Below, in pieces: positions 5,647 to 55,862 of a stretch of 56,075 bases of DNA. The notes under the pieces were generated by a model. That model saw only the letters and a list, made by a program, of their open reading frames with translations. It had not been told where the DNA came from and did not search any database. The DNA comes from Alphaproteobacteria bacterium (GTDB taxonomy: Bacteria > Pseudomonadota > Alphaproteobacteria > SMXS01), in NCBI GenBank assembly GCA_028284945.1, contig JANQQJ010000010.1:1-56075 (forward strand), in the 5' to 3' direction. The position numbers and the translations under genes are program-made. Numbering within the stretch: position 1 is the first letter of the stretch; each line of letters opens with the position of its first letter.

Positions 5647-5663
5647 ACGATACCTTGCTGAAC

Positions 5664-5748
5664 AAAAAAAGGGGCCGCCCGGCTTTCGCGGAGCGGCCCA
5701 AGTTTAGGGAGGTAGTAACCGGCCGAGGGAGGGGAAAGGCCGGTTACA
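5664..5748 (-). ncRNA. Candidate small RNA, copy 1 (anti-Shine-Dalgarno-like motif plus terminator)
   Basis: Read on the minus strand: a TATATA -10-like box at 5754-5759, a 10-bp hairpin (GTAACCGGCC/GGCCGGTTAC, 5715-5747) whose 13-base loop is TTTCCCCTCCCTC, an unpaired CCTCCCTAAACTT linker, then a GC-rich terminator hairpin and seven T (5664-5670). The linker, the start of the terminator stem and the TTTTTTTGTTCAG end recur at 55764-55862. Pyrimidine CCTCCC segments exposed in loops or linkers are typical of alphaproteobacterial small RNAs that pair with ribosome-binding sites. It lies 78 bp after the stop of the DUF1192 gene, so it could also be made from that mRNA's 3' end. Confidence 0.6.
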
Positions 5749-54136: not shown

Positions 54137-54228
54137 TGGTAGGCGCCGTGGGATTCGAACCCACCCGTGCACGGTAATCTGCCGCTTGCAGGGGTATAAG
54201 CCCCGCCCGCTCACCAGAGCTGACGCCC
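54137..54228 (-). tRNA. Unusual long tRNA-like gene, anticodon UAU
   Basis: 92 nt on the minus strand with an encoded CCA (54137-54139) and discriminator A. Acceptor GGGCGTC/GGCGCCT has two wobble pairs; the T-arm GTGGG-TTCGAAT-CCCAC is perfect. The D-arm is GCTC-TGGT-GAGC, with only four loop bases, as in selenocysteine tRNA. The anticodon arm is CGGGG-CTTATAC-CCCTG, reading UAU at 54196-54198 with A37. A variable region of about 23 nt can form a CGG/CCG arm. A canonical tRNA-Ser, -Leu or -Tyr anticodon is absent. It may be a functional AUA decoder, a Sec-like relic or a pseudogene. Confidence 0.55.
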
Positions 54229-54302
54229 CAAAGAAAATCTTCGGGGTGATCAGGATATTCGGTGCGTCGGACGAATTTGGTTCATGGCCGGTTTCTTGGA
54301 AA

Positions 54303-54377
54303 TGGTGGGCGTGGCAAGGATTGAACTTGCGACCCCTTCGATGTCAACGAAGTGCTCTCCCACTGAGCTACACGCCC
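54303..54377 (-). tRNA. tRNA-Val(GAC)
   Basis: 75 nt including encoded CCA. Acceptor GGGCGTG/CACGCCC, D-arm GCTC-AGTGGGA-GAGC, anticodon arm CTTCG-TTGACAT-CGAAG (anticodon GAC) and T-arm GCAAG-TTCAATC-CTTGC all pair fully. It is 74 bp upstream of the unusual tRNA-like gene on the same strand, so the two may share a transcript. Confidence 0.95.
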
Positions 54378-55724: not shown

Positions 55725-55763
55725 CCCCAGAGAGGCCAGCTCAAACGCATCTGCTGCCTGAAC

Positions 55764-55862
55764 AAAAAAAGAGCCACTCCGATCACTCGAAGTGGCCCAA
55801 GTTTAGGGAGGAAACGCCCACGAAGGGCAGTATCAGCGCGCGGAAAACGCGCAGCCGATACC
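55764..55862 (-). ncRNA. Candidate small RNA, copy 2
   Basis: On the minus strand: a large hairpin (55830-55861, GTATC arms and GCGCG stem), a small GCCC-TTCGT-GGGC hairpin (55816-55828), the unpaired TTTCCTCCCTAAACTT linker, then an 11-bp terminator stem with T7 (55764-55770) and GTTCAG. The linker, GGCC stem start and T7-GTTCAG end match copy 1 at 5664-5748. The 5' hairpin sequences differ completely, showing a conserved 3' module. It ends 61 bp after the stop of the gene at 55923. Confidence 0.65.

Follow-up and report, generated by a model that had tools for sequence, protein, structure and literature searches.

The window analysed here, a stretch of 56,075 nucleotides of alphaproteobacterial DNA, carries on its minus strand a genuine tRNA-like gene of 92 nt, called tRNA-Ile(tat) by ARAGORN, with an ordinary valine tRNA gene, tRNA-Val(gac) in the same output, beside it. 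Everything on which the preliminary description had remarked, namely the UAU anticodon, the 4-nt D-loop (TGGT), the 23-nt variable region, the perfect T-arm, the encoded CCA and the valine neighbor, can be read directly from the sequence. It turns out, however, that one feature had been overlooked: the 23-nt region is itself a hairpin that closes on a second anticodon loop, GAU. From 5' to 3' the gene reads GGGCGTC-A-GCTC-TGGT-GAGC-GG-GCGGGG-CTTATAC-CCCTGC-A-AGCGG-CAGATTA-CCGTG-CACGG-GTGGG-TTCGAAT-CCCAC-GGCGCCT-A-CCA. The branch is of the 7/5 type, with A8 facing C and no eighth pair, and the Rfam general tRNA model scores the gene at 22.3 bits, compared with a gathering score of 29 bits. There is a single copy in the genome, which is 3.56 Mb in size and 99% complete. 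The positions of all the features are given in Table 1.

Table 1. Features of the dual-arm tRNA gene and its surroundings in the window
Feature	Position	Strand	Remarks
Entire tRNA gene, its two anticodon-type stem-loops in tandem	54137..54228	-	nt 1 = 54228; CCA = 54139-54137; ARAGORN, homologues, covariation
Acceptor stem, 7 bp, GGGCGTC/GGCGCCT, two G.U	54228-54222 with 54147-54141	-	Sequence; A73 at 54140
Short D-arm, 4-bp stem, 4-nt loop TGGT	54209..54220	-	Sequence; one-nucleotide linker (A, 54221) to acceptor
First anticodon stem-loop, GCGGGG-CTTATAC-CCCTGC	54188..54206	-	U33-U34-A35-U36-A37-C38; loop 54200-54194; UAU 54198-54196; proposed decoding arm
Second anticodon-type stem-loop (the 'variable arm'), AGCGG-CAGATTA-CCGTG	54170..54186	-	GAU 54179-54177; C29-G41 retained; putative identity arm for IleRS
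CACGG, 5 nt, joining the second arm to the T-arm	54165..54169	-	Corresponds in position to the class-I variable loop (44-48); wider family has RGGTY
T-arm, perfect 5-bp stem GTGGG/CCCAC, loop TTCGAAT	54148..54164	-	Sequence
5' leader hairpin, able to sequester the acceptor 5' strand	54220..54253	-	8 of tRNA nt 1-9 paired; beats 200/200 leader shuffles in stability
Ordinary tRNA-Val(GAC), just upstream, same strand	54303..54377	-	ARAGORN; possibly co-transcribed
Promoter-like site	54451-54424	-	Noted with tRNA-Val

Several familiar identities were considered for this gene and rejected. The 4-nt D-loop and the long extra arm are shared with tRNA-Sec, but the elongated acceptor branch, 6-bp D-stem, G73 and UCA anticodon of that tRNA are all lacking, and in their places the window gene has a 7/5 branch, a 4-bp D-stem, A73 and UAU. 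Among the three readings offered in the preliminary description, a retooled Sec-like tRNA therefore falls, and a non-canonical isoacceptor reading AUA is the best supported; the third, a non-decoding RNA, has still to be reckoned with for the derived subtype found in the window. A serine allo-tRNA (8/4 or 9/3) is incompatible with the 7/5 branch and with A73 in place of G73. A class-II tRNA-Leu or tRNA-Ser is at odds with the relatives, in which the GAU loop is conserved and a class-I loop of 5 nt follows the arm, and a decayed gene of either kind, which had been named as a possible refuter, is contradicted by the covariation and the class-I core of the wider family. The class-I form of tRNA-Ile3(UAU) has a variable region of 4-5 nt instead of 23 nt with a second hairpin, and tRNA-Ile2(CAU) is set aside by the UAU anticodon. 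Pairing between the UAU and GAU loops was also discarded, consistent complementarity not being seen by eye.

Genes with the same two arms form a family found in more than 100 IMG/VR phage contigs, in named phages, in a Cereibacter plasmid, in Xanthomonas plasmids and in some chromosomes. BLAST against 60 related genomes found close homologues in two, G010 and G023 (a Sneathiellales MAG and Rhodospirillales bacterium TMPK1), and a plasmid search found the gene, unannotated, in Cereibacter sphaeroides plasmid D; a search of INPHARED with the window gene gave no match. A pattern combining the UAU loop, the second loop and the T-arm, in which T33 of the first arm was required, matched 70 IMG/VR phage contigs and 55 stretches of GTDB genomes, some of the latter by chance. 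Among the candidates inspected from 385 alphaproteobacterial genomes, the true members were limited to G000, G010, G023, G131 (without its 5' part) and G341, the rest being ordinary Ser, Leu, Sec and Met tRNAs. The G131 copy (L010/L154, G131:C1:45159-45245) is a 3' remnant without the acceptor 5' strand and the D-arm, as after integration or partial deletion. When 10 candidates per genome from 398 proteobacterial genomes were scored with a covariance model, the scores were swamped by ordinary tRNAs. The named carriers are Vibrio phage Brizo and other Thalassavirus, Synechococcus phage SynMITS9220M01 and Acinetobacter phage qsb1, in all of which the gene is annotated as plain tRNA-Ile.

The family falls into three subtypes. 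Subtype A has a class-I core (UA linker and normal D-arm), two hairpins and then a class-I variable loop, RGGTY; it resides in some chromosomes and in phages, where it is often part of an array of 10 to 24 tRNAs. In the phage arrays the dual genes lie beside normal tRNAs, sometimes adjoining a full tRNA-Ile(GAU). The ordinary tRNA-Ile(GAU) beside the dual gene of Vibrio phage Brizo (L162:1413-1488) has the loop CCGATAA, with C33 in place of the near-universal U33. Subtype B belongs to the Xanthomonadaceae, where 40 Xanthomonas plasmid records matched (25 of them across most of the query) as well as chromosomes; it is unannotated in the plasmid records among the matches listed, and ARAGORN misreads it as tRNA-Ile(GAT) by using the second hairpin. 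Database entries for tRNA-Ile(UAU), or wrongly for tRNA-Ile(GAU), can thus hide an unusual architecture. Of the Xanthomonas plasmid records (L549 and 39 others), some have two places with a dual-arm tRNA, and in L549, X. citri pCuR, the unannotated gene lies near copper-resistance and metal-efflux genes.

Subtype C, which is marked by a linker of one base and a D-loop of 4 nt, comprises the window gene and copies in alphaproteobacterial chromosomes, in the Cereibacter plasmid and in a T4-like phage contig (L069) that encodes a family-B DNA polymerase, UvsX and a DnaB-like helicase. The window gene has the UAU loop with U33 and A37, the GAU loop and C29-G41, the features by which the family is defined, but its linker and D-loop differ from the UA8-9 linker, normal D-arm and Levitt pair 15-48 of subtype A. 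It was therefore filed under the derived subtype C, linked to the family by its two arms and by a gradation of sequence similarity. Comparison of the subtype-C flanks gave no homology outside a segment of roughly 130 bp in which the gene itself is contained. Several copies lie near transposases, an integrase or a ParA-like gene. Related AAA ATPase genes occur near three subtype-C loci only, in the Cereibacter plasmid (L005:6122-7315), Marivivens (L146:2782-4107) and TMPK1 (L155:4017-5438); in the plasmid this gene begins 29 nt past the tRNA.

To examine the second loop, viral contigs were scanned for tRNAs with a UAU anticodon and a long variable region, leaving the second loop and position 38 unspecified. 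Among the matches listed, 56 of 66 distinct intact genes have GAU at positions 34-36 of a 7-nt loop closed by at least 3 bp, compared with 0.9 such heptaloops when the variable regions are shuffled. No conserved second loop was found in 29 control genes that share the D-arm and the long variable region but have other anticodons. Among phage tRNAs with a D-arm of class-I type, some tRNA-Asn(GUU) and amber suppressors (CUA) likewise have long variable arms in which no loop is conserved (viral contigs L352-L471).

In 75 dual genes, nearly all of the second loops (CAGAUUA, CAGAUAA, UAGAUUG, CUGAUAA and similar) follow Y-W-G-A-U-W-R. Judged by its sequence, the loop is of the tRNA-Ile(GAU) type, as CAGAUUA, CAGAUAA and CUGAUAA illustrate. 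Positions 32 and 38 are C.A in 60 genes and U.G in 11; these are taken here as isosteric alternatives typical of anticodon loops. The pair C29-G41 is found in 67 of 73 second arms versus 10 of 75 first arms. Position 33 of the second loop is A in 65 genes and U in 10, and position 37 is U in 48 and A in 25. The segment that follows the arm (CGGTT, AGGTC or CGAT) resembles class-I variable loops, A73 is present in 74 of the 75 genes, and CCA is encoded in 58.

Both arms are under compensatory change. In 32 diverse members 95.5% of the cells pair, and 217 cells have changed on both sides as against 54 in shuffles. The Levitt pair 15-48 covaries without exception in all 32 (A-U in 26, G-C in 6). 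In the second arm, pair 29-41 is C-G in 31 of 32, while two-sided changes occur at 28-42, 30-40 and 31-39. Without guidance, RNAalifold predicts all five hairpins, both anticodon arms among them. The conservation and covariation asked for in the preliminary description hold for the window's own subtype, with homologues in other alphaproteobacteria: across nine subtype-C sequences, the window's among them, 95.1% of the cells pair and 15 pairs have changed on both sides. All seven acceptor pairs are kept, five of them with two-sided changes, and the D-stem varies among relatives as GCTC/GAGC, GCAC/GTGC, GCGC/GCGC and GCAT/ATGC. The second-arm pair 29-41 is C-G in eight and U-G in one. By this comparison, subtype C has a shortened D-arm that is still under compensatory selection. 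The subtype is without U8 and most of the D-loop bases, and the first-arm pair 31-39 is broken in five of the nine sequences; core contacts typical of a decoding tRNA may be missing.

We propose that these genes encode a tRNA-Ile of mobile-element type with tandem anticodon arms, the first decoding AUA and the second being recognized by the isoleucyl-tRNA synthetase (IleRS) of the host, and we give this reading a probability of nearly 60%. The first arm, with UAU, U33 and A37, would read AUA directly, and the second, with its GAU heptaloop, 32.38 pair and C29-G41, would imitate the anticodon arm of an ordinary tRNA-Ile(GAU). The host enzyme would turn to the second arm because the usual bacterial IleRS takes G34 or lysidine-34 and charges U34 poorly. 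The topology would allow this: the first arm follows the D-stem and the second precedes the variable loop, so that each would be placed like a normal anticodon arm, and either could stack on the D-stem, the two alternating to present GAU to IleRS and UAU to the ribosome. A phage or plasmid would thereby gain an AUA reader with no need of TilS or lysidine. We infer the synthetase contact, the first-arm decoding and the alternate stacking, and for the window copy also that its short-D-arm form is still charged and used, although its activity is less certain than that of the phage form.

Isoleucine identity in Escherichia coli depends on the anticodon, A73 and t6A37, with minor contributions from C4-G69, the 12-23 pair and C29-G41 (PMC9976931). 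A review (PMC4810244; also PMC4014445) indicates that UAU is charged poorly by E. coli IleRS, and a phage tRNA with UAU as its sole anticodon would then be poorly charged in many hosts. The second arm supplies the missing elements G34, A35, U36, C29-G41 and usually A38, and the first arm is mostly without A38. In class-I UAU phage tRNAs A38 is usual (53 of 93), but not in the dual first arms (8 of 52; p = 7e-7, which is indicative only, since the sequences are related). The prevalence of A33 argues against decoding by the second arm. The conservation of U33 in the first arm is not independent evidence, as T33 was fixed by the search patterns. Two observations do not favor the proposal. Isoleucylation by E. 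coli IleRS depends strongly on t6A37 (PMC11938285), and most second arms, having U37, cannot carry it, which counts against their being read by IleRS. Furthermore, AUA use is not raised in phages with dual tRNAs (median 0.18 of Ile codons versus 0.25 in class-I UAU phages) and lends no support.

Of the other explanations, a non-decoding tRNA-like RNA, serving as a decoy or bait for anticodon nucleases, IleRS or modification enzymes, or as a regulatory RNA with a leader switch, is unlikely but deserves the most attention. It would fit the mimicry of tRNA-Ile(GAU) by the second loop, the eroded D-arm of the window subtype and the leader hairpin that could sequester the acceptor strand, and a review notes that UAU allo-tRNAs, suspected of belonging to mobile elements, were inactive in E. 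coli (PMC7609411). Against it, compensatory change maintains every stem, the acceptor and T stems included, A73 is nearly universal and CCA mostly encoded, and copies stand within phage arrays of ordinary tRNAs.

Charging of a class-II tRNA by LeuRS, or by SerRS, with AUA then read as the wrong amino acid, seems improbable. E. coli LeuRS is not known to read the anticodon, and UAU, the long variable arm and A73 would all suit LeuRS, though A73 argues against SerRS. There is also a precedent in nev-tRNA-Ile(UAU), charged with leucine in vitro according to its report (PMC4300185). Yet a full class-I variable loop, with a Levitt pair that covaries, comes after the arm, and neither synthetase would need the nearly invariant GAU loop and C29-G41 for recognition.

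It is very unlikely that the second arm is an inherited relic of an ancestral tRNA-Ile(GAU) with a duplicated anticodon arm, kept for structure: it does occupy exactly the original place of the anticodon arm in a class-I tRNA, before the 44-48 loop, but a relic would lose its loop first, and here the GAU loop and C29-G41 are fixed across very different phages while the stem changes with compensation. That one tRNA serves the whole Ile box, with UAU for AUA and GAU for AUU and AUC, is scarcely credible despite the heptaloops with 32.38 pairs in both arms and the U33 kept in ten second loops, because the U-turn base U33 is replaced by A in the other second loops and several carriers already have a separate tRNA-Ile(GAU).

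The nearest published objects to the proposed two-armed tRNA-Ile are the UAU allo-tRNAs, which have another branch type, and class-I tRNA-Ile3(UAU). The latter, known from Mycoplasma mobile, Bifidobacterium and Lactobacillus plantarum, likewise uses UAU to read AUA without lysidine; no second anticodon-type arm is described for it, and the M. mobile IleRS is itself adapted to U34 (PMC4014445, PMC4810244). In 8/4 allo-tRNAs (Mukai 2017, as reviewed in PMC7609411), UAU is among the commonest anticodons and an extra arm and odd junctions are likewise present; they come from environmental bacteria and are suspected to reside on mobile elements. By this description, the 7/5 branch, A73 and the GAU loop in the extra arm would set the dual family apart, although some published UAU allo-tRNAs may belong to it. 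tRNA-Ile2(CAU) with lysidine also decodes AUA as Ile, but it needs TilS, has a CAU anticodon and is of class I. The nematode nev-tRNA-Ile(UAU) shares UAU and a V-arm; it is a eukaryotic nuclear gene, and its abstract mentions no GAU-loop feature (PMC4300185). A literature search of partial coverage found no tRNAs with two anticodon arms, and a prior description may exist elsewhere.

In isoleucine tRNAs, the three bases of the anticodon normally have to serve both identity and decoding, two demands that compete. The sequence evidence tips the balance slightly towards a natural tRNA that divides this labor within one molecule, the ribosome reading one arm and the synthetase the other. If so, nature would have solved, by means of separate hairpins, a problem on which tRNA engineers work, phage reading of AUA would be explained although the usual IleRS charges UAU poorly, and neither TilS nor an altered IleRS would be needed for phages and plasmids to read AUA in many hosts. 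The family also opens to direct test the question of whether an anticodon left unused by the ribosome can be read by a synthetase.

The check for the usual AUA route, suggested in the preliminary description, found tilS in the window genome together with 44 ordinary tRNAs and a CAU tRNA with the Ile2-type loop CTCATAA, a candidate tRNA-Ile2 that is not separated from elongator Met. AUA makes up 3.7% of the Ile codons in the window. Since tilS and a candidate tRNA-Ile2(CAU) are both present, the window gene is most likely an accessory and not the only AUA reader of its host, an extra instead of a replacement.

Leader hairpins similar to that of the window gene are found at six other subtype-C loci (L002, L003, L005, L108, L146 and L157), and in these seven members the leader can pair with 6 to 9 of tRNA nt 1-9. 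Where the acceptor sequence changes in subtype C, the complement in the leader changes along with it. The leader fold is matched in stability by 7% of leader shuffles or fewer in seven of ten subtype-C members, whereas 26% of the other members (n = 68) fall below 10%. As a lead only, the hairpin may control maturation of the tRNA. Elsewhere in the window, the minus strand has two stretches that match the Rfam suhB/mmgR small RNA family, at 55757-55835 and 5657-5741.
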